Source: Chitinophaga vietnamensis
GTDB taxonomy: Bacteria; Bacteroidota; Bacteroidia; Chitinophagales; Chitinophagaceae
DNA length: 64,000 bases
Assembly (NCBI RefSeq): GCF_902167635.1
Contig: NZ_CABHMS010000007.1
Span: forward strand, 124,001 to 188,000
Direction of reading: 5' to 3'
Shown here: one piece after another, positions 40,012 to 60,187 of the stretch
How positions within the stretch are numbered: the first letter of the stretch is position 1
Layout: each line of letters opens with the position of its first letter
Program-made: the position numbers and the translations under genes
The notes under the pieces: generated by a model
What the model saw: only the letters and a program-made list of their open reading frames with translations
Told to the model about the DNA's origin: nothing
The model's database searches: none

Positions 40012-41751
40012 TTACTTGTTCCCAACAATCCTCAACCAGCTCTTGCCAGCGGGCTTGTCGTTGCCCTGCAATGTAATACCGATCCAGTCCATAATAGATG
40101 GCACCACATCAAAGATAGACGGGGCCGGATCTGTCTTATCCAGCGCAGCGCCCACAAAATCCCAGCTGTAATTGCCTACGATGGTGAAATCTTTCTTTGA
40201 AGGACTGCTGTCTTTGAGCTTGTTGCCGCTCTTGTCATTACTGCGCCAGTTACCGATCAGGTTTTTATAGTTCGGATGTGCCGCGTCGATATCGGTGATG
40301 AAAGCATACTTCTTCACCACATCTGCCGGCAGCGCAGCGTTCCAGATGCGTACATTGGCCATGTACATGTCCACTACGTTATCGGGGTACCATACTTCAG
40401 GGTTATAGCCGATAATAAGCGGACTGGGCGACTCCAGTGTTGGCGCGCCATGCAGGATCTTGCCGGTACCGGCAGGAATACCGTCCATGTACACATTTGC
40501 CGTATATACGTGACCGTTAGTTGCATCGTTGGTATGTGTGATAGTAGCGGCTATCGAATGGAAATTACCATCGTTGATGCCCTGCGACATCTCTGTTTCG
40601 GTAGCGTTGGCGCCATCCTGCATCACGAATACTACTTTATCATAACTGCGGTAAAAAGACCAGCCCGGGATCGTTCCATCCAGGCGTACACACTTGGTGA
40701 GGAAAGGCGGAAAGGTAAATTGATAGTTGCCATTAGGCCCTTTGTTGAATTTCACCTGCGCCTCTATTGTCATGTTGCCGCTGCCGGGGTTGTAAAGGCC
40801 GCCGTCATTGTTTTCCGCACGCACATAGCCCGGATCGCCGCCATGATAGCGCACGCCATAGTCCATCATACGAGGCCCGTCTACTTTGCCGGGCACGATG
40901 AGCGGACTGTAAAATACCGTGAAAGTACTACGTTCCATTTCCGATTTGCCCCCCATCTGTTGGGCGTAACCGCCACTGGTAGATTGTATCACCACGAGCC
41001 AGTCTTCATTGGCGGTATCTTTACGCGCCTTCAGGGCGTCCATCATCTTCCCGATATAACTATCCACATCGGTGATGGCTTGCCGGTACACCGGATTATC
41101 GCTGAAACCCGCTTGCAGTCCCGCTTTAGCAGGGCTGCTGAAATTTGCGATCACAACTTGCTCGCTGCCGTTCGCAAGTTGTGCAATGGCGGCATTGGCC
41201 ACGCCTTTGTCGCCATCCGTACGACTTACATTGATCACTTTATCGGCCTGGTTGAGCAGGAAGTTGTTAAGATCTTCCCATTGTGTGATGGCAGTCACTT
41301 TCGTCTTGCTGTCATCTGCTTTCAGGTAGTGAATAAAGCTCTCGTAGTATTTGATATCGCTATGGCCACCCTCGACAGATTTGGGTATGAGCGTGCTGTC
41401 GCCGATCTGGTGCTTGAGATAAGGCATACCAGTGGTGAGCCCTGCCCAGCCGGCGGCGACAGTAGATACGGTATCATTTACGCCGCTCCACGTATATACG
41501 CTATGTGGCAGCAGGCTGGCGATCACGGAAGGGTTGATACTTTGCACCAGCTTGCCCGGTGCGCCATCGATGCCGATCAGCAGCACCTTTTTCTTGCGCA
41601 ACCTGGCGCCACCGAAAGTTTGATCAACCGAGTCGCGGTCGTAATGCGCCAGCGAGGGCGCCTCTTTCTTGCAGGCGCTGAAACCTGCCGCCAGTGCCAC
41701 TGCCACCGCTATCACGCCACCGCGTATATGTCCTGATATTAATTTCTGCAT
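40012..41751 (-). CDS. Phosphodiesterase-like/LamG lipoprotein, paralogue 1
   Basis: 579 residues. The lipobox is FSACKK (Cys27). Residues 54-285 resemble the alkaline-phosphatase superfamily (type I phosphodiesterase): first metal Asp62 in VLLIGIDGAPG, and the GWAGLTTG loop. The later metal sites are lost: the usual D-x-x-GH region reads IANFSSPAKAG and the DHGG site reads QSTSGG (residues 256-261). From about residue 320 a LamG/concanavalin-like domain follows (MTIEAQVKFNKGPNGNYQF, WSFYRSYDKVVFVMQDG). The end, with LIGNWRSNDKSGNKLKDSSP, is of the DUF4983 type. It is the last gene of the 12-gene operon, 17 bases after paralogue 2. Confidence 0.75.
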   Translation of the reverse strand: MQKLISGHIRGGVIAVAVALAAGFSACKKEAPSLAHYDRDSVDQTFGGARLRKKKVLLIGIDGAPGKLVQSINPSVIASLLPHSVYTWSGVNDTVSTVAAGWAGLTTGMPYLKHQIGDSTLIPKSVEGGHSDIKYYESFIHYLKADDSKTKVTAITQWEDLNNFLLNQADKVINVSRTDGDKGVANAAIAQLANGSEQVVIANFSSPAKAGLQAGFSDNPVYRQAITDVDSYIGKMMDALKARKDTANEDWLVVIQSTSGGYAQQMGGKSEMERSTFTVFYSPLIVPGKVDGPRMMDYGVRYHGGDPGYVRAENNDGGLYNPGSGNMTIEAQVKFNKGPNGNYQFTFPPFLTKCVRLDGTIPGWSFYRSYDKVVFVMQDGANATETEMSQGINDGNFHSIAATITHTNDATNGHVYTANVYMDGIPAGTGKILHGAPTLESPSPLIIGYNPEVWYPDNVVDMYMANVRIWNAALPADVVKKYAFITDIDAAHPNYKNLIGNWRSNDKSGNKLKDSSPSKKDFTIVGNYSWDFVGAALDKTDPAPSIFDVVPSIMDWIGITLQGNDKPAGKSWLRIVGNK

Positions 41752-41768
41752 AATGCGATCATTTAAGG

Positions 41769-43445
41769 TTAGAAGAATTTAAGCCACAGGCGGCCGCTGA
41801 CCTCCCACTCGGGATTGATCTGCAAATTGAGCCAGTAGGCGATCTGGTAAAATACTTCGGAACTATAGGGTGGTGTTTGCAGATCGATGTTACCGGCGCA
41901 GGGCAACACATAATCCAGCAGGTCCCAGGTATAGCCGCCTTGTAACGCGAAATCCTTACCCCTGGCGCCCGGCGCCATATTGCGGAATACGCCGCCTTTA
42001 CGCTCCTTGCAAGGCCAGTAGCCGATCAATTTACCGTAGTAAGGATGCGAGGCATCGATCACATTGGTGCAGGAATATTTCGTGATCACATCTTCTGCCA
42101 GCGAATCTGCCCAGATGCGTACGTCTGTCATATACATGTTTTCCGGCGTACCCAGCGACCCCGGGATATACCCCATCGTGAGTGGCGCTGTAGTAGTTAC
42201 ATCGCCGATGGCCGTGATCTCCTTACGGTTGTTGAAAACACCATCGGTAAAGGTTTTCACCCATCGCTTCTTGTTGGCATCTGTATAGATCACCGCCGTA
42301 AGCTGATGCCAGAGCGCATTGTTCATATTAGCTCCCTTGCATTGGATATTGCCGCCGGATTTACGGCCGAAATTAATTTGCCAGTAGCTGCCTTCCTGGA
42401 AGAAACACCAGCCAGGCACGCCGCCATCAAAGGAGGCACGCTTGGACAGGAACGCAGGATAGTTGGCGGTAAAGCCCGCGGTAGCAGTACGCATCTTACA
42501 CTCTATGGTATAGTTACCCGTGCTGCCGAAATTATACATGCTCTTATCTCCCAACACCGCATTTACTGCTGATGCGCCCTGGTCATACATGCGCACACCG
42601 TATTTGATGGCCTGTGGCATATCGACCTGGTGCCTGAACAGATCCGGGCAATAGAACAGGGAGAAACAATTCATCTCCTCGTTAGAGTCGCCACCATAGC
42701 TGTTATCGATACCGCCATGTGTGGACTGCACGATCACGAGCCAGTTCTCATTCGCAAAATCAGGGCGGCTTTTCATCGCATCAATGAGGCTGCCAATATA
42801 GCCGTCCACCTTAGTGATGGCAGCAGCATAGGCCGGCGAAGATGCGCTGAAGGCCGAAGCGCGACCGGCTTTGTTGATGCTGTTGAAATGTGCGAACATC
42901 AGGTCCAGGCTATCTTTTTTCAGATGTGCAACTGCAGAGTCGCGCACTACGGCATCATCATCTTTCGTAGTCACTTTCGTTACCACATCGGCCAGCAAAG
43001 TTTTGTGCAATTGTTCCCAACCCGTTACAGATACGGTTTTGAGGTTACGCTGCCCCGATTTTTTCACCAGCGACAAAAAAGGCGCATAACGCGCGCCACT
43101 GGCGGATCGCGGCGTGAGCGTGCTATCACGGATATTATTTTTAGCCACGCTTACACCGGTCAGGATATTGGCCCAGGAGGCGCCATCGTTGGTGACGCTG
43201 TCGGCCAGCGATTCATAACTATAGGTACTGTGTTCCATCATCCCCTGAAGCACAGGCGGTACGGCCTTTTTCAGCTCCAGGCCCGACAGTCCGTCCACTA
43301 TGATCACCAGCACCTTACTTTTGTCGGAGAACTTCGGTTGCGGTGTATTATCGCTGGATACCAGCCCCACCTTTGTACAGGCCGCCAGCAGCATGGTGGC
43401 GGCGAGTGTACATCTCCTCAGATATTTTACAGAGATCATGCGCAT
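41769..43445 (-). CDS. Phosphodiesterase-like/LamG lipoprotein, paralogue 2
   Basis: 558 residues. The lipobox is LLAACTK (Cys23). The phosphodiesterase-like part has Asp51 in VLVIIVDGLSG and WANILTG. The expected D-x-x-GH site reads FAHFNSINKAG, and the DHGG site STHGG (residues 241-245), so one His is kept and the Asp is lost. The LamG-like half includes YTIECKMRTA and GVPGWCFFQEGSYWQINFG, and the C-terminal part has LIGYWPCKERKGGVFRNMAP. It lies between the M60 peptidase gene and paralogue 1. It is probably a surface-exposed binding protein rather than an enzyme (inference). Confidence 0.75.
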   Translation of the reverse strand: MRMISVKYLRRCTLAATMLLAACTKVGLVSSDNTPQPKFSDKSKVLVIIVDGLSGLELKKAVPPVLQGMMEHSTYSYESLADSVTNDGASWANILTGVSVAKNNIRDSTLTPRSASGARYAPFLSLVKKSGQRNLKTVSVTGWEQLHKTLLADVVTKVTTKDDDAVVRDSAVAHLKKDSLDLMFAHFNSINKAGRASAFSASSPAYAAAITKVDGYIGSLIDAMKSRPDFANENWLVIVQSTHGGIDNSYGGDSNEEMNCFSLFYCPDLFRHQVDMPQAIKYGVRMYDQGASAVNAVLGDKSMYNFGSTGNYTIECKMRTATAGFTANYPAFLSKRASFDGGVPGWCFFQEGSYWQINFGRKSGGNIQCKGANMNNALWHQLTAVIYTDANKKRWVKTFTDGVFNNRKEITAIGDVTTTAPLTMGYIPGSLGTPENMYMTDVRIWADSLAEDVITKYSCTNVIDASHPYYGKLIGYWPCKERKGGVFRNMAPGARGKDFALQGGYTWDLLDYVLPCAGNIDLQTPPYSSEVFYQIAYWLNLQINPEWEVSGRLWLKFF

Positions 43446-43462: not shown

Positions 43463-44926
43463 TTACCTGATATCGTTCTTCCATATCTCTTCTGTCAGCA
43501 GCGGCAGGTCGCTTACATCGGCCTGTGCCGCGGCGGACACGTTAATGCCCCAATGCGTGAAGAAAGGCTTCAGGTTCACACCTGCGTAGCGACTGGCTTT
43601 TACGTAGAAGAAATTTTTCTTCACTTCGTTGATGTATGACAACCTTTGTTCGTGGCGGGCTTCTTTACAGATATATCCCATCATGCCATAGCCGTAACGT
43701 TGGAACAGCTGTACAAAGGGCACGAGGCGCTGAAACACATCGGTGATCTGTGAAAAGGGCCGGGTGGTATCGCCTTTGTTCACCCAGTCGAGCGCGCTGC
43801 CAACGAAGTTCTGGACCGGGTCATACACGCGTGGCGGTTTTAATCCATGACGTTGTGCGATCTGGAAAACGAAAAGGTTGTTGGAAGTTTCGCCAAGGCC
43901 ATCGGGGCCGCTCCAGCTCCACATGTCATTCATCTGGAAGTTGTGGCCTACCTCGTGGAAAGGCCCCCAGCTGGCGCCGTGGTTGATGGCAGCTGTATCG
44001 AGGAACTCACTGTGCCAGTCGAGGTACGCCATGCAAGGATAGCCATTATGGCCGCTCCCCGCCGATATCTGGATATCGAGCACAAAGCGGTGCGGCGTGC
44101 CTGGCGCCTGGTCTATCGGATCAGCAGGATTATCAGAGAGGCCGTACCATTCGTGGTAATCTTTCTCTATCACCTCGTCCCATTTTCTCACCACGGCATC
44201 GGCGCTGAAATTATCCAACATGCCTATCAGCACTTTGCGGTAAAGGGTCATGATGAAGCGTTTGCCGCGCAATTCCAATACCGGCACCTGTGAGTGGCGT
44301 ACCTGCTCTTTCCAGGTGGCATCAGCGCTTTCACCGAGCACGAAGTCGGGCGATTTGCACACATTACTGAGTGTTACGGTGATCTTTTTGTTAGAAGGGC
44401 CTGTGGGGATCAGGTAGATAAGCCCTCCGTAGATATTGCGGATATAGTTCACGCCGGGCAGTACGGTCTTGTTGGTAACGATCACGCCTGCACGTAGTTG
44501 CGGATATTTGCCGTTTATATTATCTGTATGCGATCCTACCTGTACGGTCATGCCTTCGGCGCCTTGTGGCATTTCAATCTTCACCAGTTCGCCGGGAGCG
44601 GCGTAGTAGCCGGTGCTGAGCCACTGGCCGGGCGGTACGCTGATACGTATCTGCGGGGAGGCGATCTTGTAATTGAGATCGAGGGTCACTTGAACGTTCT
44701 GCAAGCGCGGCTCTACTACAGATACCAGCCCCGGGAATTTGCGCGCGTCGGGAAACCCGCTGCTGTCGATCCTGAGCATGCTGGTATCCACGCCGCCGAG
44801 GCCAGTGGTATCTTTTTTCAGCGGCGTATTGTAGCCATCTTTATAATTATAATCTTTCTTACAGGCCGAGATCATCAGCAGCAACAACGATATACCTGCA
44901 ACGGTCCTGGTAATGGATATTTTCAT
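43463..44926 (-). CDS. M60-type metallopeptidase, lipoprotein
   Basis: 487 residues. The lipobox is MISACKKD (Cys22). A beta-rich N-terminal half comes first (RISVPPGQWLSTGYYAAPGE), as in M60/enhancin-like proteins. The gluzincin site is HEVGH (His324, Glu325, His328) in WGPFHEVGHNFQMND, and the downstream Glu346 in LGETSNN is 18 residues away, within the HExxH-8/28-E spacing of M60. Known relatives cut mucin-like O-glycoproteins at the cell surface. It is the only clear hydrolase in the 12-gene operon. Confidence 0.88.
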   Translation of the reverse strand: MKISITRTVAGISLLLLMISACKKDYNYKDGYNTPLKKDTTGLGGVDTSMLRIDSSGFPDARKFPGLVSVVEPRLQNVQVTLDLNYKIASPQIRISVPPGQWLSTGYYAAPGELVKIEMPQGAEGMTVQVGSHTDNINGKYPQLRAGVIVTNKTVLPGVNYIRNIYGGLIYLIPTGPSNKKITVTLSNVCKSPDFVLGESADATWKEQVRHSQVPVLELRGKRFIMTLYRKVLIGMLDNFSADAVVRKWDEVIEKDYHEWYGLSDNPADPIDQAPGTPHRFVLDIQISAGSGHNGYPCMAYLDWHSEFLDTAAINHGASWGPFHEVGHNFQMNDMWSWSGPDGLGETSNNLFVFQIAQRHGLKPPRVYDPVQNFVGSALDWVNKGDTTRPFSQITDVFQRLVPFVQLFQRYGYGMMGYICKEARHEQRLSYINEVKKNFFYVKASRYAGVNLKPFFTHWGINVSAAAQADVSDLPLLTEEIWKNDIR

Positions 44927-44956: not shown

Positions 44957-46693
44957 TTATTTCGTGGTGTTCGGAAAATCGCGGTAGCGGGCGGGCCAGG
45001 CTTTGCCGTCGAGGCCCCAATCCGCCTGTACCGGTATATGCAGCCAGTCGAAGATCGCGAAGGGAATATCTGCCGGGTTGGGCACATATTTTTCCTGGAA
45101 GGGTATTACCGGGAAGAGGTATCCGCTGGCATCGCTGAAGGCTTCCCACTTGTATTTTCCGAGCAGCGAGAAATTCTTTTTCGATGGGCTCTTGTCGGCA
45201 AATACAGCGCCTTGTCCATCCAGGCAGGGCCAGTAGCCGATCAGGTTATTGAAGTTGGGATGCGAGGCGTTCACATAGGTGCGGGACGCCCAGCGTTTGA
45301 TGTTCTCATCAGAAACTACGGTATTGAATATACGAACATCAGACACGTACATATCGATGTACTGTGTAGAGAACACGGCTTCAAAGTAGCCCAGCACGGT
45401 ATTTTTGGTGGTGGAGAGACCGGCGATATTCGCATTCACGATCTGGCCGGTTGCTTTGTTATCGCCATCTATGAACAGCGCGGTTTTCACGGTGGTACCG
45501 CTGATCTCCACGGTGCCGCTGATGGTATGCCAGCTGCCGTCAGCATAATCACCCCCGCCTATTTCTGCTTTCTGTGAGCCATCCGCTACATAGAAGGAGA
45601 TGTTACGGCCATTGCGGAAGAAGGCCCAGCCCGGGTTTGTGCCGGAACGTTGCGTACATTTCCCGAAGAACGGCGGCCAGGTGTAGGTATAGTTATTATT
45701 AGGCCCGGGCATGAACTTCACTTTGGCTTCGAAGGTCATGTTACGGCCGTTGATGTTATAAAAATTACCATCGTTGATCTCTGCGCGCACGTTATTATCC
45801 GGAGGACCAAAGAGGCGTACTTCGCTGCCTTCATAGGGCACACGGATATTTTCCGGACGTACGATCACCTGGCTTTCAAAGCGCGGGTTGAAGAAGAAGG
45901 TGAAAGTATTTTGTACCGGGTTGGAGAACGGTGTGCCGTCATTATCTTCCGGGCGTACCGGCCAGGGGCCGCCGTGGTTGGAGGTGACCACCACCAGCCA
46001 GTTTTCATTACCGATATTTTTGCGGGCGCGCAGGGCGGTCATGATATCACCGATACGTGCATCGGCCTGGTAGATGGCATCAGTGTATTGCGATACCGAT
46101 TCATCGTAACCATATTGTTTACCGGCGGCATCTACGCCGTTAAATTCAGCGAATACGATACCGGCATTGTCATTACCCAGTTCATTGATCACGGCGGCGC
46201 TAACGGCATCGTCGGAGGCGAGCAGTTTGTTTTCATCCATGTTGTTACCCACGACTTGCTGGCTCAGCGCGGCGGAGGCGCAAAAGGCCGCCGTGCGGAT
46301 ATTAGCGCCGGCATCTTTCAGTCTTTTACTGAACACGGGATAGGTAGCCAGGTCAGCATGCGTGTAGTCGTTACCGTTAACCTTGTGTTTGGCGCTGGTA
46401 ACGCCGGTCAATATATCGGCCCATCCGGCGCCGTTGGCGCCGGATGTATCGGAAATACCATTCCAGGAGAACACGGCGCTGTCGCGCAGGTTCCAGATCA
46501 CCGGCGGCTTGATGGATTGCAGCGTAAGGCCTCTGGCGCCATCTACCACCAGCACCAGCACTTTAGGCTTGCCCGACAGCTTGCCGGGATCGTTGTTATA
46601 TTCCTGTTCCCGCAACACGCCCTGGCTATCCTTGTTACAAGCGCCGAAAGCGAGCATCGCGGCAACACCCAGTAGCGGAATCATCTTTTTCAT
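44957..46693 (-). CDS. Phosphodiesterase-like/LamG lipoprotein, paralogue 3
   Basis: 578 residues. The lipobox is LAFGACNK (Cys19). Of the three paralogues it is closest to an active phosphodiesterase-like domain: Asp51 in VLVLVVDGARG, GWADILTGVTSAKH, FAEFNGVDAAGKQYG (Asp kept, but Lys where the usual GH has His) and TSNHGGPW (Asn where Asp is usual; His240 kept). The LamG-like part includes NMTFEAKVKFMPGPNNNYTY and GTNPGWAFFRNGRNISFYV. The end has LIGYWPCLDGQGAVFADKSP. It lies 30 bases before the M60 peptidase gene. Confidence 0.75.
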   Translation of the reverse strand: MKKMIPLLGVAAMLAFGACNKDSQGVLREQEYNNDPGKLSGKPKVLVLVVDGARGLTLQSIKPPVIWNLRDSAVFSWNGISDTSGANGAGWADILTGVTSAKHKVNGNDYTHADLATYPVFSKRLKDAGANIRTAAFCASAALSQQVVGNNMDENKLLASDDAVSAAVINELGNDNAGIVFAEFNGVDAAGKQYGYDESVSQYTDAIYQADARIGDIMTALRARKNIGNENWLVVVTSNHGGPWPVRPEDNDGTPFSNPVQNTFTFFFNPRFESQVIVRPENIRVPYEGSEVRLFGPPDNNVRAEINDGNFYNINGRNMTFEAKVKFMPGPNNNYTYTWPPFFGKCTQRSGTNPGWAFFRNGRNISFYVADGSQKAEIGGGDYADGSWHTISGTVEISGTTVKTALFIDGDNKATGQIVNANIAGLSTTKNTVLGYFEAVFSTQYIDMYVSDVRIFNTVVSDENIKRWASRTYVNASHPNFNNLIGYWPCLDGQGAVFADKSPSKKNFSLLGKYKWEAFSDASGYLFPVIPFQEKYVPNPADIPFAIFDWLHIPVQADWGLDGKAWPARYRDFPNTTK

Positions 46694-46722: not shown

Positions 46723-48351
46723 TTATTTCTCTAAAACCAGCCTGAAAATATTGCCCACACTGGTGTTGTCGAAGGCGACGATGCTGCCGTATATGATCAC
46801 GGCGGGCTCTCCTTCCGCGGATACTGATTCTACCATACCGTTTACAAAACCTGCCAGCATACCGGTGTTATTATAACCGGCGGCCAGCGAGCCATCAGGG
46901 TTGAGGATCATCAGCCCGCGGCGCACATAGCCGTCATATTTCTCGAAATTGCCTGCCACCACCAGTTTGCCGTTGTTCAGCTGGATGGCGTGATTAGGTA
47001 CGCCGCCGGTGAAGGTGCGTGACTGGAAGCTGGTCACCATCGATCCATCTTCATTCAACATCACGATACCATTGCAAGGCACCCCGTTGAAAGTGGTGAA
47101 GTTGCCGGTAACGATGATCTTCTTCGTATTCTTGTTGTAGCGAAGGGAATAGATCCTGTCATTCGCACCGGTACCTGCTTTGAACGATCCGTCTATATTA
47201 CCATTAACATCCAGGCAGGCAATGTTAGCAGCGGATACATTGTCGAACTTGTTGAAAAAGCCGCCTACCACCAGCCTGCCATCGGGCAGCAGGGCGCCGT
47301 CTGTTAGGAAGCCGGCAGCGCCGGGTTTACCCCTGTGCATGTTAAGATCATAGTGGTAGGTAGAATCGAGATTGCCATTCCGGTCGATAGCCGCTACACT
47401 GTTGATATCGCGGCGGTCGATGGTGCGCTGCGTTTTAGTGGAGTTCTTGTAGAAGTACTGCACATAGCCGTAGAAGTTACCCAGCATCAGCACGCGGTTG
47501 CCCGATTGATACATATTACTCACCTGGCCTGTAACGCCGCCATTCAGGGCTGATACGGTATCTTTCGAGCGGTTCTCCTGCTGGGCAGGATCTGTGCTGC
47601 CAGCGGCATCGTCGGCAGGAATGATCTGCACAACTGCGGTATCTATCAATCCGGCAGGATGTATGCGCACCACATTGTTCAGTTCTTTGCGGTAGCCATA
47701 GCGGTCAAAGAATCCACCGAGGATGAATTTATTATCGGAGAGCTGGATACCGCTGGATATCATGCCTGTGCGGCCTACCGCCGAATCGGTCTTGAACGCG
47801 GCAACAAAATCACCATGCTTTTCAATCATCGCGATACCATTGAGCGGGTTGCCGATGCCATTGCTGTTATACACTTTAAAAGCGCCCAGCAGCAGGTAGC
47901 GGTTATCAGACGTAGCTATGAGCTGGTTGATACTTTGATCGGTGCCGGTGCCCGATTTGAATGTATTATCTATCCTGGCTTTCCCTTTTACCTTGAATAC
48001 AGCTGTATAAAATGTTTGCTGGCCGATATTCACCGATCCGGTGCCGGAGCTGGCGGCAGGCGGCACCACTACAGTGATGCTGTTATCTGTCACCGATGTT
48101 ACCTGCGCCTGCTGGCCGGAAAGGAAAAAATGCAGGGAGTCTTTATAAGGCAACAGTCCTGTTACCTTGAAAGTCACTTTATCACCGGAAGAGCCTACGG
48201 CCGGCGATGGCAGCTCCGTGCTGAACACCACGCCCAGCGGTGGTTTGCCGCCGGCATACGGATCGGGGTATACCGTTTCGTTATCTTTTTTACAAGCGGC
48301 TGCCAAGGCAACTAACAGCAGCAGGTACATATGTTTTTTGATCATTTGCAT
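46723..48351 (-). CDS. DUF5008-type lipoprotein with IPT and beta-propeller repeats
   Basis: 542 residues. The lipobox is ALAAACKKD. An IPT/TIG-like domain is at about residues 40-115 (AVGSSGDKVTFKVTGLLPYK). At least five propeller-type repeats follow, with phrases such as GAFKVYNSNG, GGFFDRYGY, GNFYGYVQYF, GGFFNKFDNVS, GNFTTFNGVPC and GNFEKYDGYV, the form of delta-60 (DUF5122) repeats. It resembles DUF5008 proteins, which occur with SusC/SusD and fasciclin proteins. The likely role is surface binding. It lies between fasciclin protein 1 and phosphodiesterase-like paralogue 3. Confidence 0.72.
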   Translation of the reverse strand: MQMIKKHMYLLLLVALAAACKKDNETVYPDPYAGGKPPLGVVFSTELPSPAVGSSGDKVTFKVTGLLPYKDSLHFFLSGQQAQVTSVTDNSITVVVPPAASSGTGSVNIGQQTFYTAVFKVKGKARIDNTFKSGTGTDQSINQLIATSDNRYLLLGAFKVYNSNGIGNPLNGIAMIEKHGDFVAAFKTDSAVGRTGMISSGIQLSDNKFILGGFFDRYGYRKELNNVVRIHPAGLIDTAVVQIIPADDAAGSTDPAQQENRSKDTVSALNGGVTGQVSNMYQSGNRVLMLGNFYGYVQYFYKNSTKTQRTIDRRDINSVAAIDRNGNLDSTYHYDLNMHRGKPGAAGFLTDGALLPDGRLVVGGFFNKFDNVSAANIACLDVNGNIDGSFKAGTGANDRIYSLRYNKNTKKIIVTGNFTTFNGVPCNGIVMLNEDGSMVTSFQSRTFTGGVPNHAIQLNNGKLVVAGNFEKYDGYVRRGLMILNPDGSLAAGYNNTGMLAGFVNGMVESVSAEGEPAVIIYGSIVAFDNTSVGNIFRLVLEK

Positions 48352-50635: not shown

Positions 50636-53600
50636 CTAGAACTGTACATTCAACCCGAGGGTCACTGTTTTCCGGATCGGGTAACCATCTGCCTGGTCCC
50701 TGCCCAGCCCGGACACATTCTCCGGGTTAGGCCCGCTGTAGCGGGTGAAGAGCCAGGGATTAGTAACGGTCACGTATGTACGGCAGGAGGTGATGCCCCA
50801 GCGGATGGTACGGTCGCGCGGGATGGTGTAGGCCACCGTGATGTACTGTATCTTGAAATAAGAACCGTCTTCTTCAAACAGGGTCTGGTCCACCCGGTAA
50901 GGGCGCACCTTTCCAAAACGCGTATAGTCGTAAGGGTTAGGATACTGCGCTTTGTCGCCCGGCTTGGTCCAGTAATTATAATCATCGATGGGTACGAGCC
51001 CGGAGAGGATACCATCACTGTTTTTAGTCAGGGGTGTAGAGAAGCTCGCAAACCTGGCGGCAGTGGCATTGGTAAGGATATCACGGATAGCGGTGTATGA
51101 TGCCACCACGTTGAGCGACCAGGCCTTGTATTGCAGGAAGGAGTTCAAACCACCGGTGATCAGCGGTTGTGAGTTACCTGCATAAATATAGTCGTTACCG
51201 TTAATGATGTAATTGCCGTCGAGGTCTACCCAGCGCGGATCGCCGGGGCGCATGGGATAGAAGTTCTGTCCTTTGGCGTCTGCCACGAGTATCGGGCGGC
51301 CGGTAGCGGGATCAACGGGCACGCTGGCGGCATCGGCGTATACACCGCGGTTATAGAGCAATACGTTTGTAAGGCTGTTGCGGCCTACCCGGTACAGGAT
51401 GCTCTGGTTGTTGGCATCATCATATTTTATCAGTTCCCTGGCGCCTCCGGGCAGGTAAGTGAGATAGTCTCTGTTAAGCGCGCCATTGAAGCCGATGGTC
51501 CAGTTAAACTTGCTGGTGGCGGGCAGCGGGCGGTAGGTGAAGGTCCATTCGAAGCCTACGTCCATCAGGCCTGCATCATTGGTTTGCACTTTGCTGAACC
51601 CGCTGCTGGTAGGCAATGCAAGGTCCATCAGCATATTGTCCACATGTTTCACATAGGCGTCAAACTCCGCCTGCAGCTTGCCTCTCCAGAGGCCTAGTTC
51701 AAGACCGCCATTGAGCTGCGTGGTGGTAGCGGGTTTCATGTTGGCATTCGGTAACCAGTCGTATTCAATACCACTCATCGGACGGTCGTTATAACGGCCG
51801 CCGTTACGGTCGTTGTATACGCCGTAGGCATCGAAGATGGTGCCCTGCGGCGTTACGTTGCGGCCCCAGCTCGCGCGGAGAGAGCCGTAATCGAGCCACG
51901 ACAGGTCTTTCAGCGTATTCTCCTTATTAAAGTTCCACCTCACGCCAACAGAAGGGTTGTTGGAATAAGGCGTGCTCTTACCTGTGGTGGAAGAAGCATC
52001 GCGACGGAACGAGAGGTCCAGCATGTACTTCTGAATGTAGTTGTAGCTGAAGGAGGCGGCGAAAGAAGCGCTGCGGAAATCTTTGGCATTATCCAGGATG
52101 CCGCCGGCATCTGAAAATCCGCCGGAGCCGATAGGCCCGTGCAGGTTATCATTCGGCGTACCGCGCATACGCAGCATGGTGGCCTGATAGCCCACTTTGT
52201 TCAGCTCATTGAAGGCCGACAGCGTGAAGTTATGTTTATCGTTATACGATTTGAAATAAGAGATGCCGCTGCGGCTGTACAGCGAAGTATTACGGTCGTT
52301 GAATGCCCGTACTTCGGAGTAGTTGTTGTTGATGGCGGCCGGTATGAAATTATCTTCCGTACCCGTTGTATTCTCATAAGAGAAAGTACTGGTGAGGTGT
52401 AAGCCCCTGTACAGTTCATAATCCACATCCACATTGGTGCGCACGTTGGCCGTTTTGTTGGTATTATCATTGCGCAGGGCCGATATGGCGCTGGCAGAAG
52501 AGGAATAGAAACCTGGCGGCGGCAATAAGGACGACTGCCGGCCGGCCTTGCCCACGTCTGATTGTGTGATACCGTTACCACTGCCTTTGCTGTTCTGCCC
52601 CAAACTGGTAGTGATGGCGGCAAATATCTTCAAACGCGGCGTGGGCCTGTATTGCATGTTGGTGCTGAGGCTGTAGCGGTTGAAGTCTGTATTCTTCAGG
52701 ATACCTTTTTCATTATAGTAACCGAGGTTCACTTTATAATTGAAACGGTCGTCGCCACCGGATACCTGTACGTTGTGCGTTTGGTTGTAGGTGTATTTGT
52801 AGAACAATCCCTGCCAGTTGGTAGAGTTGTTGTAATACGGGTTAAGACTATCTGCCAGGAAGGGCGTGTTGTTGATATCTGCCTGCGCATATTTCAGGGA
52901 GTCGGTATAATTGAGCACTTGCCAGATGCGCTGGCGTCTTTCTTCATTACCACCAATTACTTTACGCAAAGTAGGCGGTATGCTGATGAAGAAGTTACCG
53001 CTATACTGCACAATAGGCACTTTGGATTTACCACGCTTGGTGTTGATGAGCATGACGCCATAAGCGCCACGGGAGCCATATAGCGAGGTGGCCTGCGCAT
53101 CTTTCAGCACTTGTATGCTTTCGATATCTTCCGGCGGGATGAGTGAGAGCGGATTCAATCCCGGGCCTGCCTGGTTGAAACCATATTCATAACCGGAATT
53201 AGGATCGATGGGTACGCCATCGATCACATACAAAGGTGAAGTGGGGCTGAGGAAGGCGTTATCACCGGAGCCGGAGATACGCAGGGATGAAAGGCCACGC
53301 ATCTGTATGGTGCCGGCATAACCGGGTGCGCCGGTGTTGTTCTGAATGTTCATACCGGCTACTCTGCCTTGCAGCAGTTCGAGTACGTTCGATACTGGTA
53401 CGTTCTGCAGGTCTTTACCGCTGATGAGCACAGTGGAACCGGTGGTGGTTTCTTTTGTTTTGCGCTGATAGCCGATCACCACCTGTTCATTGAGTTTATT
53501 TTCTTTTACGGAGAGATAGATGCGCATCATCTCTCCGGCTTTGGCTTTCACGGTCATAGCGCCGAAGCCCATGGCCTGGAAGCTGATATCGGCGCCCTCC

Positions 53601-53800
53601 GGCACATTTACGGTGAAGGAGCCATCGCCGCCGCTGGCGCCCACGCCTTTCGGCGGTTTGCCGGTGAAGATGACCACACCAGGGATAGGATTGCTGTTAC
53701 CTTTTTCATAGACAACACCTTTCACCGTCACCGTGTTTGTTTGCGCAGATGCGCTACCCGCCAGCATGAGCGCCAGCAACAGGTAAAGCAACCGCTTCAT
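50636..53800 (-). CDS. SusC/RagA-type transporter 1 of the 12-gene operon
   Basis: About 1054 residues from the ATG at 53800, which opens directly on a signal peptide (LLYLLLALMLAGSASAQ); an ATG at 53830 is also in frame. A carboxypeptidase-regulatory-like domain (VTVKGVVYEKGNSNPIPGVV) is followed by LNEQVVIGYQRKTKE, the plug (LQGRVAGMNIQNNTGAPG, IESIQVLKDAQATSLYGSRG) and the 22-strand barrel, which ends in TLGLNVQF. It starts the second module of the operon, 78 bases after the DUF5007-type gene. Confidence 0.93.
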   Translation of the reverse strand: MKRLLYLLLALMLAGSASAQTNTVTVKGVVYEKGNSNPIPGVVIFTGKPPKGVGASGGDGSFTVNVPEGADISFQAMGFGAMTVKAKAGEMMRIYLSVKENKLNEQVVIGYQRKTKETTTGSTVLISGKDLQNVPVSNVLELLQGRVAGMNIQNNTGAPGYAGTIQMRGLSSLRISGSGDNAFLSPTSPLYVIDGVPIDPNSGYEYGFNQAGPGLNPLSLIPPEDIESIQVLKDAQATSLYGSRGAYGVMLINTKRGKSKVPIVQYSGNFFISIPPTLRKVIGGNEERRQRIWQVLNYTDSLKYAQADINNTPFLADSLNPYYNNSTNWQGLFYKYTYNQTHNVQVSGGDDRFNYKVNLGYYNEKGILKNTDFNRYSLSTNMQYRPTPRLKIFAAITTSLGQNSKGSGNGITQSDVGKAGRQSSLLPPPGFYSSSASAISALRNDNTNKTANVRTNVDVDYELYRGLHLTSTFSYENTTGTEDNFIPAAINNNYSEVRAFNDRNTSLYSRSGISYFKSYNDKHNFTLSAFNELNKVGYQATMLRMRGTPNDNLHGPIGSGGFSDAGGILDNAKDFRSASFAASFSYNYIQKYMLDLSFRRDASSTTGKSTPYSNNPSVGVRWNFNKENTLKDLSWLDYGSLRASWGRNVTPQGTIFDAYGVYNDRNGGRYNDRPMSGIEYDWLPNANMKPATTTQLNGGLELGLWRGKLQAEFDAYVKHVDNMLMDLALPTSSGFSKVQTNDAGLMDVGFEWTFTYRPLPATSKFNWTIGFNGALNRDYLTYLPGGARELIKYDDANNQSILYRVGRNSLTNVLLYNRGVYADAASVPVDPATGRPILVADAKGQNFYPMRPGDPRWVDLDGNYIINGNDYIYAGNSQPLITGGLNSFLQYKAWSLNVVASYTAIRDILTNATAARFASFSTPLTKNSDGILSGLVPIDDYNYWTKPGDKAQYPNPYDYTRFGKVRPYRVDQTLFEEDGSYFKIQYITVAYTIPRDRTIRWGITSCRTYVTVTNPWLFTRYSGPNPENVSGLGRDQADGYPIRKTVTLGLNVQF

Positions 53801-53878
53801 CTTCCCTGGTATAAAAGTATACTTATACATGAAGGTCTGATTTTATCATTGATGATATTATTTGTATCTCTCCTGTGG

Positions 53879-54916
53879 TCAATTGTTTGAGAAATCAGGA
53901 TTTCTTGCCCAGAACCAGAAGATCACGCGCCAGTTGCCCGGCTCATAGATGGCGAGGTCGGTGCCCAGCAAAGCTGTTTCCCGTATACCGGCCACGCCTA
54001 TACGACTGTAGCTGAACTGCACATGCGCGCGGTTGCCCAGGTTATTCGTATAGCGTGTAGGCAAGGGCGTTAGTGGAACGGGATAAGCCACGTCGTAGGT
54101 AACGCCATCCGGCGCAAACTGCGCGGCGCCAAAGTGATGCACTACTTCTTCCCATTTGGTATCGCCGAACATTTTCGGATCGATGGGATTGTAGGAAGAA
54201 TCGCGGAACTCGAACGTAAGGCTGTTGCCGGTCGATTTCGGATCCTTGTAGAAGATCAGTTTGATAGCGCTGTTGCCCATATAGTAGTCCGAGTTCTTTG
54301 CTTTGATGTTGACCACGAGGTTGGGGTTGTTGGTACCATAGGAATTGCCTGTTACCGGATCGATGGTGTTCGGCTCGTAAGGCTGCTGCCGCAAAGGTTT
54401 CAGCTCCATGTTACGGATCATTTTAGTACCGCCGCTGTTGGATACTTCCACATCGAACCTATACCCGGGGTCTGGCTGCACTTTTACGGCATTGAGATAA
54501 GCAGGATCGATGGGCGTCCACATCACGAACTGCCCGGAATGCTCCCGCACTTCAAAGAGATGGTGCTCTTCTATCGTACGTTTTTTCTCTATCTCTTCCC
54601 TTGTTTTTTCCAGTCCGGTATAGGCTTCTTTCCACACCAGCACCGGAAATGTTTTATTGAAGATATCTACCGGCTCTCCTGCTGCCGTGCGCACGTTCAT
54701 CACTTTGAACGTGAGCGGCAAGGTGGAGTGGTCGGCATTGAAGATATTGGTTTGCGGATCGCCGGGCAGGAGCGATGTTCTGCCCAATACCGGCTCAAAG
54801 GTGGTCTGGTTGTAGCCTGCGCCCGGGCTGATGTAATCCACATCAGCAGGCACTTTCACACAGGCCTGTGTGCCTATCAGGCCGGCTGCTGCCAACAGTA
54901 GCTGCAATCTTTTCAT
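53879..54916 (-). CDS. DUF5007-type lipoprotein
   Basis: 345 residues. The lipobox is GLIGTQACVKV. The first mature part reads VPADVDYISPGAGYNQTTFE, then LGRTSLLPGDPQTNIFNADH and STLPLTFKVMNVR. The rest is beta-rich, with a charged helix near residue 105 (EEIEKKRTIEEHH). It resembles DUF5007 proteins, which in related genomes accompany SusC/SusD and fasciclin genes. No enzymatic motif is seen. It lies 11 bases after fasciclin protein 2 and ends the first module of the operon. Confidence 0.7.
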   Translation of the reverse strand: MKRLQLLLAAAGLIGTQACVKVPADVDYISPGAGYNQTTFEPVLGRTSLLPGDPQTNIFNADHSTLPLTFKVMNVRTAAGEPVDIFNKTFPVLVWKEAYTGLEKTREEIEKKRTIEEHHLFEVREHSGQFVMWTPIDPAYLNAVKVQPDPGYRFDVEVSNSGGTKMIRNMELKPLRQQPYEPNTIDPVTGNSYGTNNPNLVVNIKAKNSDYYMGNSAIKLIFYKDPKSTGNSLTFEFRDSSYNPIDPKMFGDTKWEEVVHHFGAAQFAPDGVTYDVAYPVPLTPLPTRYTNNLGNRAHVQFSYSRIGVAGIRETALLGTDLAIYEPGNWRVIFWFWARNPDFSNN

Positions 54917-54927: not shown

Positions 54928-55599
54928 TTATTTGTCAAACCTGCTGATGAACTCATTGAATCCGAACTCGTGATCTCCGCTCAGGATGTGCAATACGCCA
55001 TTCCTCACGTAAGTGTCCATCGACATCGTGTTGGCCCTTACCCATTTGCTGATGTAGAAGGAGCCCTTGGTATCGCTGTAGATGATGTACTTCGGGCCGC
55101 CGCCGGAGAACCCGGAGGCGGATTGTGTGAACAGCTGCAAATTCACCTCCCTGCTGTATTTGAGCGAATTGATACCGCGTCCGTCGGGGAACTCGCGCAA
55201 ACTGTCGGCCGGGTATACGCCAGGCACCACATAACGGCAGAAGAGCGTATCCAGGTTTTTGAGATCGATGGTATTAAGCGATACAGGAGCCAGGCCCTGC
55301 TTGCGGCGCAGCACATTCAGGTTGCCCAGGGCCGTAGCGAAGCTGGTATTGGTAGCGCCGAACACAGTGATCTGTGTGTTGCTCATCACACGTTTCAGCC
55401 CGAGGCGGTCCATCACTACCACCATCGAGTCAAATACGCCGGTCTTACTTTTCAGATAGTCGTACATGTTAGCATCCACCTGGGTAACACCCTTTGAATA
55501 TTCTTTGTAGCCGCCATCTTTCTGGCAGCCTGCCAGCAGCCATGCTGCCAGCAGCGAAAAGCACAGTATGCTATAGATATTTCGTTTCTGCATTGCCAT
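54928..55599 (-). CDS. Fasciclin (FAS1) domain lipoprotein 2
   Basis: 223 residues from the ATG at 55599 or, with equal likelihood, the one at 55593. The lipobox is WLLAGCQKD. The FAS1 domain is clear: QITVFGATNTSFATALGNLN and RYVVPGVYPADSLREFPDG, with a NGVLHILSGD part near the end. The tail HEFGFNEFISRFDK resembles that of fasciclin protein 1, which supports duplication of a module. It starts 2 bases after SusD 2. Confidence 0.85.
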   Translation of the reverse strand: MAMQKRNIYSILCFSLLAAWLLAGCQKDGGYKEYSKGVTQVDANMYDYLKSKTGVFDSMVVVMDRLGLKRVMSNTQITVFGATNTSFATALGNLNVLRRKQGLAPVSLNTIDLKNLDTLFCRYVVPGVYPADSLREFPDGRGINSLKYSREVNLQLFTQSASGFSGGGPKYIIYSDTKGSFYISKWVRANTMSMDTYVRNGVLHILSGDHEFGFNEFISRFDK

Positions 55600-55601: not shown

Positions 55602-57146
55602 TTATTTAAGCCAATAAGAATTTTGTACGAGCTTGGGATTGGCCGCCAGCACTTCATCGGCGAGTGGCCAGTAGATACCGCCATTGTTCAGCAAAGGCGC
55701 CAGGGCGCTCCTGCCGGGCCGCAGGCGTGCATAGCGTACCTGGTCGTACCAGCGCCATCCCTCTCCCATCAACTCTCTCCTTCTCTCCCTGAAAATTTCG
55801 TCGAGCATATCTTTGCCTTTGAAAGACGGGCTTACAATCCCCCGGCTCACCATCACCGCCGATAGCCACTGGTTTGCTTCCACAGGATTGTTGGTTACCA
55901 CGGCAGCTTCTGCGCGGAGCAACATCAACTCTTCCATGCGTGAAAACATCATGGTAGCATTATACATGCGGAAGATGCCTTTGTCGGCCTTTCCATCTTC
56001 AATGATCTTGATCTTGCTGAACACCGGTGTAGTGGTATTGTAGTTGGTGAAATAATATTCTGTGAGCGGATAGCCGGTATTCAGGTTGATGCTGAAACGC
56101 TCATCGCCGGGCCAGTTGAAATAAGACAGGATAGAATCGCGCGGTACATACATCGCCGGCAAACGGTTGCTGGTAATGGGTTGCGCGAGGGTATACTCCT
56201 GCAAATGCCCTTCGGTTACGCCTTCTGAATTGTTATAATCGAAAGCGAAATTGAGTATCTGACTGGGGCCTGTGCGTGCAAAAAATCCGCTGTCGCTCCT
56301 GCACAGCTCTTCTGTTTTTGGTGTGAAGGTGGTACCGGCTTGCGTGTAATTGTCGAGGATGAATTGTGTATAGGACATTACATCGGTGTAATGCTGCTGC
56401 CAGGCTGCGATGTGCGCCAGCACGGCATAGGCGCTGATCTTGTTCACCAGCGTGCCTTTCCAGAAACCGTATCCCTGATTGAAATACAGCTCGCCGGGCA
56501 TCTGTGGATCGCCGCTCTGGTAGATAAAGGGCAGATCTTTCGCAGCAGCTACCAGTTCTTTCTCTGCAAAATCGAGCACGGTGGCCTGCGGTGTGCGCGG
56601 CAACTGCGGAAACTGGCCATCATAAGAAGTGACGATCAGCGGCACATCTCCCCACACACGCACCATATAAAAATAGAGGAATGCCCGCAAAGCCCTTGCC
56701 TGCGCTATGTCCAGGCGATGGTTGGCCGCGGTATAAAAAGCGTCCTTCGCTACAATATTACCCGAACGTTCGATGAACAGGTTAGCAGCGTTGATAGCGG
56801 CATAAAAACGGCGCCAGCTTTTCAACGATTGCAATTGCGGAAAAGATACATTCAGCTCGTTGTTCACTACCGCCTTGAGATCGGCACGTGACACCGGCAC
56901 AAAATCGCCTTTACGAAACTCGCCATACATCCAGAAGGCGGCATTGTCGGCGAGGGCGGCACGGGTGAGGCCATATACGCCAATGAGACTGCTACGTGCA
57001 TCCTGCACGGTAGACCAGAAATCTTTATCGGTCACCAGCCGGGTGGACTTTACATCCAGTATCTTGCTGCACGACACGCCCGTGGCCGTGAGTGCCAATG
57101 CCAGGGCGGCTTTTCTTACTGAACGAAATATATTATTCATACGCAT
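55602..57146 (-). CDS. SusD/RagB-type lipoprotein 2 of the 12-gene operon
   Basis: 514 residues. The lipobox is TGVSCSKILD. Family marks are KSTRLVTDKDFWSTVQDARS, DIAQARALRAFLYFYMVRVWGD, MEELMLLRAEAAVVTNNPVE and the terminal FRERRRELMGEGWRWYDQVR. It starts 14 bases after the SusC-type transporter 2 and is followed by the fasciclin gene after 2 bases, which suggests strong translational coupling. Confidence 0.92.
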   Translation of the reverse strand: MRMNNIFRSVRKAALALALTATGVSCSKILDVKSTRLVTDKDFWSTVQDARSSLIGVYGLTRAALADNAAFWMYGEFRKGDFVPVSRADLKAVVNNELNVSFPQLQSLKSWRRFYAAINAANLFIERSGNIVAKDAFYTAANHRLDIAQARALRAFLYFYMVRVWGDVPLIVTSYDGQFPQLPRTPQATVLDFAEKELVAAAKDLPFIYQSGDPQMPGELYFNQGYGFWKGTLVNKISAYAVLAHIAAWQQHYTDVMSYTQFILDNYTQAGTTFTPKTEELCRSDSGFFARTGPSQILNFAFDYNNSEGVTEGHLQEYTLAQPITSNRLPAMYVPRDSILSYFNWPGDERFSINLNTGYPLTEYYFTNYNTTTPVFSKIKIIEDGKADKGIFRMYNATMMFSRMEELMLLRAEAAVVTNNPVEANQWLSAVMVSRGIVSPSFKGKDMLDEIFRERRRELMGEGWRWYDQVRYARLRPGRSALAPLLNNGGIYWPLADEVLAANPKLVQNSYWLK

Positions 57147-57160: not shown

Positions 57161-60100
57161 TTAAAGATCCAGTTTCAATCCTACGGTATACGTTTTCGGA
57201 ATAGGGATCGTATAGCCGTTATCGTAGCCATTGTAGTAGCTCAGCTCGGGATCGCCGCCACTGTAGCCGCTGAACGTAAGCAGGTTATTACCGGTGGCAT
57301 ATACGTAGCAGCGTTTGACGCCTGGCGCTACCCTGCTTAACCACTTGCTGCCGGCGAGGTCATATCCCAGCGATATGCTGCGCAACTTCACGAAAGTGGC
57401 GCGCTCGAGGAACAGGTCCTGGTCTGCCCGGTATGGGATCACCGCGCTCCACGGATTATACAGCGGATAGCTTTTCATATTTTCCGGACGTTGCCAGTAA
57501 GTGATATCCTTCACCGACTCTATGTTGGATTGTCCGTCGTGGTTGATGAAATCCAGCCGTGTAGCGGTTTTGCTGTTGAGGATACTATGGCCTCCGGCGA
57601 AGTAGAAAGAGAAGGAGAGGTCCACTTGTTTATAACGGAATGTATTGCAGAAGTTGCCGGTATACACGGGCATGCTGTGGCCGGTCATCGTTTTATCTTT
57701 ATCATCGATGATATAATCTCCGTTCACATCGCGCCACCTGGCATCGCCGGCAGTGAAAGCCACGCCTTTGAAACTCAGCGGCATATTGGTTTTCGGGTTG
57801 ATGGGCACTTCGCTGTTGCTGTTGTAGATGCCCTGGTTTTCGTATAGCCAGAACTGATCTACCGCTTTGCCCACTTCAAATTTCCGGTCGCCGATGATGA
57901 GCTCTCTGGCCCCATTGGGCAAGGCTTTCAGCTCATTTTTGTTGTATGCTGCACTGAAGCTGGGTGTCCACTGGAAATTTTTACTGCGGATCACCTCTCC
58001 CGCGATGCCGAGTTCCACGCCGCTGTTGTTTACCTGCATGCCGCTCATATATGCGCTGATGTAGCCAGATTCTGCTACCACCGGCATCGGCAGCAGCATG
58101 TTCTTGTCGTTCTTCGAATAATAGTCTGCTTCGATGCGGAGGCGGTTGTTGAAGAAGGCGGTGTTGGCGCCGATGGTGAGGATATCTGCATAGGACCATC
58201 CTACGTTCTCTCCTACCCATCCATAAGAGTAAGGCCGTGAGATGCCCGCTACGCCTGCGTAAGAGTACATGTTGGGATTGCCGCTGGTGCCGAGGTCCAC
58301 TTTATATTGGGGGCCTGCAGCGAATCGGTCGTCGCCGGGCAGCCGGCCTATGCGGCCCCAGGAGGCATGTACGCTAAGGTCACTGATCGCTGGCTGATCC
58401 TGCAGGAAATGTTGTTTCATATTCCACTCCGCGCCGATGGCAGGCGTGAACAGCCATCGCCTGGAAGACGCTACCAGTGAGGATCCGTCGCTACGCAGGG
58501 TGAGTGAGAGACGGAAGATATCGCGATAGTTGTATTTCACATGGCCGTAGAAAGACAGCAGCCTTTGTTTTTCATTATCGATATAACGGTAAACGAGTTG
58601 ATTGGCGAAGAACAGTGGTGCGAGATAGTTGGCTTTATTCGCATCGCTTTCCACGATATTTACTTTGATACGGTCGCTGATACCTTTGTAAGCGCGCTCG
58701 TAGGTATATTTATAGAGGTCTGCCTGTAATGATTGTCCTGCCTCAAAGCTGAAGCGATGATCCCTGGAGGGGCTGTATTCATAGTCTACGACGTTTTCGA
58801 AGCCTACGCGCTGGTTGCCGCCATAATAGTTGGAGGCGTAATTGGCGCCATCCATGAGGGTGCCGGGCCAGAACACATCGCGGCGGTTTTCGTTGTAGTC
58901 GTAGAGAAGACGGGAAGTATAACGGAAACGGTTAAACGCAAATGCGAGAGAGAAGGTACCCTGTATGCTGTTTACATGATTCTTATCGAATCCTTTGTTA
59001 AAGTTACTGAGATAGTCGCCATAGGCGCTTTTGTCGGGCGACAGCGGGCTGCTGATATCCGGGATGTAGGCCGTTTCATCGAAGCGGTCCTGCATAGCGG
59101 TATTGCGTTGCCGGTCGAGGCGTGTGGCATTGACCATGGCGGAGGCCATGAGCCACTTGATGGGCGACATATTTACGATGAACGACGCGGAGTATTTATC
59201 GAGCCGGGTATTATCCGCGATGCCGTTGGCCCTTGTTTCGTCGCCATAGAAGCGGAAGTTAGCTCTTTCGGAGCCGCCGGAGATGCTGGCATTCACGGTA
59301 TGTTGTGTGGTATTGCGGAAGTAGAGATCTGTCCAGTTGGAGCGGCCGAAATAGCTCGCATTGGAAGAGTCGCGGAGCCAGGAAGGGAAGCTGAGCGAGT
59401 CGCCGGTTTTCGCATACTTTTCATAGTACGGTTTGCGGAAGCGATTTTCATATTGGCCGTTCGTGGTGAATACAGGATCATAGAGGTTGATGCCGAAGTA
59501 GCTGTTCACGCTGATACGGCGTTGCCCGCTGGAAGCGTTTTTGGTGATGATGTTGATCACGCCGTTGGCGCCGCGTGGGCCGAAGAGGCTGATGGCGCTG
59601 GCATCTTTAAACACCTGTATCTCCTGTATATTGTCAGGGTTCACGGCGGCCAACAGGTTGGTGGCGGGCCCCAGGCGATTGCGTTCGCTGCGTTGGATAT
59701 CGAAGATAATCGTATTATCCTGGACGAGCGGCACGCCATTTACGTATACTGCAGGTTGCACCTGGTATACTTCTCTTTTGGATAGCAGTGGCATGGCCGT
59801 ACCGCGTACATACATGAATTGTTCTGTTCCAGGTTCGCCACTGGGCTCTTGCACGTAAAGGCCCCTGATATTACCTTTCATCATCTGTTGTACAGAGGTA
59901 TAGGGATAAAGGGCAGTTTGGCCAAGGGCCAGCGTATCATTGTTCCTGAATACAGTTGGGGCTGTTCTTCTGTTGATGGTGCGTATCACATCATATTCGG
60001 AGATAACAGTGGAATCTCCTGTGGCGGGAACGGAGTCCCGGGCCGCAGCAGGTGTTTGTTGAGGCGCTGCCATGGCCTGTTGCGGGCCGGCGCAACAGAT

Positions 60101-60187
60101 AACAGGCAGCACGCAACAGGCAGTTAGCAGCGAAAAGATCCGGCGCCGCTTCTTTTCCCGTAAGCGCGTGGAAAGGTGATCTCTCAT
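57161..60187 (-). CDS. SusC-type transporter 2 of the 12-gene operon, lacking the usual N-terminal domain
   Basis: About 1008 residues from the ATG at 60187, which gives a basic n-region and hydrophobic signal (RRIFSLLTACCVLPVICC); ATGs at 60214 and 60223 are in frame. The carboxypeptidase-regulatory-like domain of normal SusC proteins is missing: after the signal peptide there are only about 60 residues, with a low-complexity Ala/Gln part, before the plug (MMKGNIRGLYVQEPSGEPG, IQEIQVFKDASAISLFGPRG). The barrel ends in TVGLKLDL. It is the first gene of the operon. Ordinary TonB-dependent uptake is expected. Confidence 0.88.
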   Translation of the reverse strand: MRDHLSTRLREKKRRRIFSLLTACCVLPVICCAGPQQAMAAPQQTPAAARDSVPATGDSTVISEYDVIRTINRRTAPTVFRNNDTLALGQTALYPYTSVQQMMKGNIRGLYVQEPSGEPGTEQFMYVRGTAMPLLSKREVYQVQPAVYVNGVPLVQDNTIIFDIQRSERNRLGPATNLLAAVNPDNIQEIQVFKDASAISLFGPRGANGVINIITKNASSGQRRISVNSYFGINLYDPVFTTNGQYENRFRKPYYEKYAKTGDSLSFPSWLRDSSNASYFGRSNWTDLYFRNTTQHTVNASISGGSERANFRFYGDETRANGIADNTRLDKYSASFIVNMSPIKWLMASAMVNATRLDRQRNTAMQDRFDETAYIPDISSPLSPDKSAYGDYLSNFNKGFDKNHVNSIQGTFSLAFAFNRFRYTSRLLYDYNENRRDVFWPGTLMDGANYASNYYGGNQRVGFENVVDYEYSPSRDHRFSFEAGQSLQADLYKYTYERAYKGISDRIKVNIVESDANKANYLAPLFFANQLVYRYIDNEKQRLLSFYGHVKYNYRDIFRLSLTLRSDGSSLVASSRRWLFTPAIGAEWNMKQHFLQDQPAISDLSVHASWGRIGRLPGDDRFAAGPQYKVDLGTSGNPNMYSYAGVAGISRPYSYGWVGENVGWSYADILTIGANTAFFNNRLRIEADYYSKNDKNMLLPMPVVAESGYISAYMSGMQVNNSGVELGIAGEVIRSKNFQWTPSFSAAYNKNELKALPNGARELIIGDRKFEVGKAVDQFWLYENQGIYNSNSEVPINPKTNMPLSFKGVAFTAGDARWRDVNGDYIIDDKDKTMTGHSMPVYTGNFCNTFRYKQVDLSFSFYFAGGHSILNSKTATRLDFINHDGQSNIESVKDITYWQRPENMKSYPLYNPWSAVIPYRADQDLFLERATFVKLRSISLGYDLAGSKWLSRVAPGVKRCYVYATGNNLLTFSGYSGGDPELSYYNGYDNGYTIPIPKTYTVGLKLDL

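Follow-up and report, generated by a model that had tools for sequence, protein, structure and literature searches.

The closest described relative of the locus reported here is the arabinogalactan locus of Bacteroides thetaiotaomicron, BT0262-90 (PUL5). Published work gives arabinogalactan as its primary substrate and growth without BT0267 as 78.9% of wild type (PMC3243724), and BT0268 is treated as the susC gene of a locus that responds to arabinogalactan (PMC6874557, PMC5061871). The gene list of PMC10434189 names BT0269-75 as SusD, hypothetical, DUF5007, SusD and DUF5124 proteins, and BT0277-79 as carbohydrate-binding, alkaline phosphatase family and hypothetical proteins. A second point of comparison is the B. 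thetaiotaomicron mucin locus BT4240-50, in which an M60 lipoprotein, BT4244, likewise belongs to a polysaccharide utilisation locus and acts on mucin; going by the description in PMC3267712, from which this likeness is drawn, that locus has GH2 and GH109 enzymes, unlike the operon studied here. Among the matches listed, we found no description of what DUF5007, DUF5008, DUF4983 or FAS1 proteins do in loci of the SusCD type.

Here we analyse a window of 64,000 nucleotides from the 6.3 Mb genome of Chitinophaga vietnamensis, which carries a twelve-gene operon of transporters and lipoproteins. The operon is a real, strongly conserved and recurring system, and its nine-gene core very probably has its ortholog in the central genes of BT0262-90. 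If so, a nine-protein surface machine can be named, including families still called DUFs, and tied to a plant-glycan locus with a known inducer.

Twelve genes without a carbohydrase

Twelve open genes, all on the minus strand, fill positions 40012-60187 of the window (Table 1). The earlier note was right about the single direction and put the gaps at up to about 78 bases; they measure 14, 2, 11, 48, 34, 12, 24, 29, 30, 17 and 17 bases, a range of 2-48. We infer that the genes are co-transcribed. Pfam bears out the family order first read from the sequence: SusC, SusD, (FAS1), DUF5007, SusC, SusD, FAS1, DUF5008 with a propeller, PDE/DUF4983, M60, PDE/DUF4983, PDE/DUF4983, the first FAS1 entering through its 24% identity to the second. 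That almost all products are lipoproteins or outer-membrane proteins also agrees with our reading. By eye, all ten non-SusC products have a cysteine behind an N-terminal hydrophobic stretch, and a simple lipobox pattern matches eight of the ten, missing both SusDs. These lipoproteins would be displayed at the cell surface.

Of two marks of a polysaccharide utilisation locus, the operon has one twice over, with two adjacent SusC/SusD pairs; Pfam detects no carbohydrate-active enzyme among the twelve genes. The earlier claim of an operon free of carbohydrases, with the M60 peptidase as its only evident enzyme, therefore stands. Such an operon could also serve to scavenge peptides or metal with no glycan substrate, in a RagAB-like or iron-responsive way, and the iron-dependent genes listed in PMC10434189 do include BT0269-75 and BT0277-79. 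However, the likely B. thetaiotaomicron orthologs are described as responding to arabinogalactan (PMC6874557), and we regard scavenging as hardly likely at all.

A GH51 gene begins 223 bases past the last operon stop, on the same strand and beyond a terminator-like hairpin. The folded stretch has a z score of -3.68, and none of 200 shuffles folds as well; its T tail is short. This hairpin after PDE3 suggests that the GH51 unit is separate and makes GH51 unlikely as a thirteenth operon gene. The hairpin is absent from the sites of a consensus terminator scan, and promoter and terminator scans of the window gave no more sites than shuffled sequence. Neither a tRNA nor an Rfam match that reaches the gathering score occurs in the window. 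At the other end of the operon, the 144-base stretch resembling Chitinophaga niastensis reaches into the start of the SusC1 gene. Divergent peptidase S51 and TetR-family genes (60867-62303) lie upstream. Elsewhere in the window are four adjacent PmbA/TldD-type genes in one direction, arranged as two pairs (12893-18886), and a run of BatA-like, MoxR-type AAA, exosortase-family and VIT-domain genes, also in one direction (22580-30377), possibly an exosortase system.

Table 1. Operon genes and adjacent features, in window coordinates
Feature	Position	Strand	Evidence
SusC1, TonB-dependent transporter	57161..60187	-	Plug domain (Pfam); no CarboxypepD_reg extension found
SusD1, surface lipoprotein (predicted)	55602..57146	-	Pfam
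FAS1a, fasciclin-like lipoprotein	54928..55599	-	Homology to FAS1b; no Pfam match
DUF5007 lipoprotein, probable surface binding subunit	53879..54916	-	Pfam DUF5007, E 2.9e-67
SusC2, TonB-dependent transporter	50636..53830	-	N-terminal CarboxypepD_reg-like domain just below Pfam cut-off
SusD2, surface lipoprotein (predicted)	49105..50601	-	Pfam
FAS1b, fasciclin lipoprotein	48376..49092	-	PF02469, E 7.5e-6
DUF5008/TIG domain and DUF5122 propeller lipoprotein	46723..48351	-	Pfam
PDE1, alkaline-phosphatase-fold probable pseudoenzyme, DUF4983 and LamG-like stretch	44957..46693	-	2 of 4 ligands kept
M60 metallopeptidase lipoprotein (predicted)	43463..44926	-	PF13402, E 1.8e-45; HEVGH intact
PDE2, probable pseudoenzyme with DUF4983	41769..43445	-	Pfam and ligand residues
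PDE3, probable pseudoenzyme with DUF4983	40012..41751	-	Pfam and ligand residues; Phosphodiest just below cut-off
15-bp hairpin, terminator-like, directly 3' of last stop	39966..39998	-	Folding against shuffles
Upstream intergenic region, presumably promoter region	60188..60866	-	About 80% identity to C. niastensis over 144 bases
GH51 alpha-L-arabinofuranosidase, exported, adjacent, probably separate unit	38244..39788	-	Pfam; export signal by eye
AraR/NrtR-type Nudix regulator, adjacent	37562..38230	-	PF21906, PF19368
Aldose 1-epimerase, adjacent	36357..37502	-	PF01263

A nine-gene core recurs across genera

Nine of the twelve genes form a core whose order is almost invariable. We searched one genome per species, 84,980 species in all, with a profile built from four DUF5007 proteins and kept the best 80 of at least 165 confirmed relatives. 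In 77 of these 80 loci, SusC1-SusD1-FAS1-DUF5007-SusC2-SusD2-FAS1-DUF5008-PDE/DUF4983 are contiguous on the same strand and in the same order, split open frames having been merged for scoring. The three exceptions are one locus that lacks the PDE (L026) and two that run into a contig end (L027, L075). This order is far beyond chance. In 686 of 701 pairs of neighbouring genes of the system, the two overlap or lie no more than 100 bases from each other. Conservation beyond one strain, on which the earlier note had made its proposal depend, is thus borne out: among the best 80 of at least 165 relatives, the core occurs in Chitinophaga, Niabella, Flavisolibacter, Pedobacter, Mucilaginibacter, Sphingobacterium, one Bacteroides and others. 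In C. niastensis (L097) the same twelve genes are followed by GH51 and the same type of regulator. Pedobacter frigoris has two core copies (L047, L021) on one contig within about 45 kb, two tandem M60 genes after one of them, and nine M60 matches in its genome.

A sample of the phylum places DUF5008 with DUF5007. DUF5007 is matched in five of 395 sampled genomes, strongly in three, and the same three are those with DUF5008 over cut-off, every such match lying within the core; a fourth genome has DUF5008 below cut-off. The two genomes with weak DUF5007 matches (L013, L014) show a single-module form, SusC-SusD-DUF5007-like, with FAS1 recognisable in one.

The two modules within the core differ widely in sequence. 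SusC1 and SusC2 are 27% identical, SusD1 and SusD2 24%, and FAS1a and FAS1b 24%, the last pair matching at E 1e-12. The proposed doubling of a four-gene module accordingly holds for SusC-SusD-FAS1 and fails for the accessory lipoprotein, since sequence comparison detects no relationship between the DUF5007 and DUF5008 proteins. In a tree, 84 SusD1 rows form one clade across genera (support 0.994), and SusD2 is not set apart from four outgroup SusDs. These identities and the single SusD1 clade give no support to a recent duplication. FAS1b is assigned by a direct Fasciclin profile match and FAS1a only through homology to FAS1b; a joint profile of the two matches solved FAS1 domains (best E 2.9e-10). 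SusC homologs are the PDB chains nearest to SusC1, and because both SusC1 and SusC2 match glycan-type and RagA-type chains alike, sequence does not decide the ligand type. Against PDB sequences, DUF5007 gave no convincing match, with one borderline sandwich match by fold, and the DUF5008 protein gave none.

The Bacteroides version lies beside a regulator and GH43 enzymes

Three Bacteroides loci probably connect the core to arabinogalactan. DUF5007 was found in three of 80 genomes of the genus, a sample drawn from a larger group. In each (L090/L095/L096 from B. acidifaciens; L108/L109; L110/L111), an M60 homolog and then a PDE come after the nine genes, so the order from SusC1 to the PDE, then M60 homolog and PDE, is common to the window and all three loci. 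SusC1 of the window is 39% identical over 986 columns to SusC1 of L109. By Pfam, an HTCS regulator and three flanking genes stand beside the core in two of the three loci (L090 and L109); the third stretch ends at a contig edge. In B. acidifaciens two of the three flanking genes are GH43. A flanking GH43 with a RicinB domain in L109 matches PDB 6euf, which we take to be BT0265, end to end over 475 residues (1116.8 bits).

The published gene names point the same way. Those of the core agree with BT0269-75 and BT0277-79, as given in PMC10434189, except that DUF5124 stands in the place of DUF5008. B. thetaiotaomicron BT0262-90 would thus have the same nine-gene order, M60 homolog and PDE, an order that we read in three other Bacteroides genomes. 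The earlier note knew of no described system with this set; one exists, the same order standing in Bacteroides beside HTCS and GH43, evidently BT0262-90.

The two versions differ in their surroundings and in the peptidase. In the window the M60 motif is intact, the operon includes three PDEs and no HTCS adjoins it, whereas in Bacteroides the M60 homolog lacks HExxH in all three loci examined and HTCS and GH43 adjoin the core in two of three. Pfam of the genes neighbouring the window operon finds neither an HTCS nor a GH43 exo-galactanase.

These comparisons bear on the target, which had been guessed from M60 relatives to be a glycoprotein or glycopeptide, mucin included. A glycoprotein or glycopeptide is plausible; mucin is disfavoured by the arabinogalactan comparison. 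A system for mucin or another animal O-glycoprotein would have a precedent in BT4244, yet in Bacteroides the operon seems to correspond to the arabinogalactan locus and its M60 homolog has no zinc motif, Pfam finds no GH2 or GH109 in the operon, and most relatives belong to soil- or plant-associated genera. We set the analogy with BT4244 aside and consider a mucin system very unlikely.

The M60 peptidase is a variable partner of the core

Window gene 10 encodes a predicted active peptidase, with the HEVGH zinc motif, the PF13402 domain and the M60 N-terminal domain. Its position varies among loci. Across 77 loci among the best 80 of at least 165 relatives, gene 10 is M60 in 49, another same-strand gene in 26 and an opposite-strand gene in two; with another gene in its place in 28 of 77, the M60 peptidase falls outside the core. 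HExxH is present in 39 of the 49 M60 homologs. Of the other ten, nine end or break before reaching the site; the last, from B. acidifaciens, is without the motif in its full-length form (L095). Set side by side, soil and gut relatives of the operon apparently show an enzyme becoming a non-enzyme. Sixteen downstream stretches were read for the system's gene families only. A PDE follows the first M60 downstream of the core in all 15 loci read past M60, once after a second M60; in L127 an additional, more distant M60 lacks a following PDE. Of ten M60-lacking loci scanned, four (L028, L051, L065, L078) have a BT_3987-like_N lipoprotein as gene 10, perhaps an M60 counterpart, and one has a gene with a GH65/GH95-type N-terminal domain.

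Such variation would suit a core that is a general-purpose dual-SusCD chassis, re-targeted in each lineage, with the paralog and the tail genes (M60-PDE, BT_3987-like lipoproteins, GH95 and others) setting the substrate, which here need not be a plant glycoprotein. The inconstant gene 10, including the alternatives seen in M60-lacking loci, is one argument for this. Another is paralogy, as genomes hold up to five DUF5007 matches (17 genomes) or up to six (11 more), some of them weak and partial. A third is the range of neighbouring enzymes, GH95, GH51, GH2, GH29, PL8 and GH97. Many of these enzymes, however, remain compatible with plant polymers that carry arabinose, galactose or fucose, and the almost invariable nine-gene order favours a complex under constraint whose ligands are of a similar class. 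We treat lineage-wise re-targeting as a serious possibility that is on balance doubtful.

The phosphodiesterase-like proteins have lost most of their active site

The PDE proteins of the operon look like pseudoenzymes. At most one of four metal ligands is kept in 94 of 96 distinct operon-type proteins, the exceptions being PDE1 of the window, with two, and the protein of L089, with three. All three stand-alone PDE controls keep all four. His363 of Xac NPP is presumably one further ligand, outside the four scored. Loss of activity is likely and not proven, because PDE1 and the L089 protein retain two and three ligands; from the ligand counts with this positive control, we judged active phosphodiesterases unlikely. 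The family assignment made at first sight agrees with Pfam, while most of the active site is gone. Compared with NPP-type phosphodiesterases of the alkaline phosphatase superfamily, the operon proteins have mostly lost the nucleophile and the other ligands checked, and carry extra LamG-like and DUF4983 parts. Together they would be a family of proteins that are probably pseudo-phosphodiesterases and may serve to bind glycans.

DUF4983 is matched in eight of the 395 phylum genomes and therefore has other homes than the nine-gene core. Stand-alone PDE-DUF4983 proteins with intact ligands occur at L132:8563-10245, L133:9749-11434 and L134:9147-11000; by eye, their genes adjoin HAD-like, FAD-oxidoreductase-like and MFS-like genes, perhaps for phosphonate catabolism.

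A model of dual uptake and a proposed substrate

We propose that the operon encodes a capture-and-uptake system for glycoconjugates. At the cell surface, two SusC/SusD pairs and the FAS1 lipoprotein belonging to each would capture a large glycoconjugate, helped by the DUF5007, DUF5008-propeller and probably dead phosphodiesterase-LamG lipoproteins. The M60 metallopeptidase would cut the glycosylated polypeptide, both transporters would bring glycopeptides or oligosaccharides into the periplasm, and periplasmic enzymes encoded elsewhere would finish them. As a general mechanism, uptake through two SusCD pairs with surface lipoproteins as helpers is likely. The whole reading, which adds to conserved dual uptake an M60 peptidase step and a plant-glycoprotein substrate, we hold to be an even call. 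We hypothesise that the substrate is an arabinose/galactose-rich plant glycoprotein of the arabinogalactan protein or extensin type; if this guess is right, the M60 protein is a plant-glycoprotein peptidase.

A bolder version would make the operon a widespread, carbohydrase-free machine for whole plant hydroxyproline-rich glycoproteins, in which M60, as a surface O-glycopeptidase, opens the protein, the dead PDE-LamG proteins, three of them here, are receptors, and gut Bacteroides, having inherited the machine, lost the peptidase on turning to free arabinogalactan. We think this version unlikely.

Neighbouring genes bear on the plant-glycoprotein hypothesis in both directions. Both the window and C. 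niastensis have GH51 and AraR-like genes next to the operon, an adjacency that, seen in these two related genomes only, may be chance. Inverted repeats occur upstream of the operon; with no consensus string taken from PMC4666351, none of them was recognised as an AraR site. Used as a query, the Bacteroides exo-galactanase finds matches in 17 of the 27 genomes that bear the core, with E < 1e-30 in 11, and none in the window's own genome or in that of C. niastensis; with this hallmark galactanase missing from the genome, the plant-glycoprotein reading is weakened. Only B. acidifaciens and Mucilaginibacter L046, two of the 17, have the galactanase match within 20 kb of a DUF5007 gene. Upstream of SusC1, the Mucilaginibacter locus has GH97, ROK and LacI-type genes and, at a distance of about 5 kb, a GH43 that shares 38% identity with the query; GH95 lies downstream, and there is no M60. 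This set (L135/L046: GH97, GH43, ROK, LacI-type, GH95) is the fullest array of enzymes seen outside Bacteroides. In the window itself, one more SusC/SusD pair, with an AraC-type regulator after it (30610-36109), stands just before the arabinose genes.
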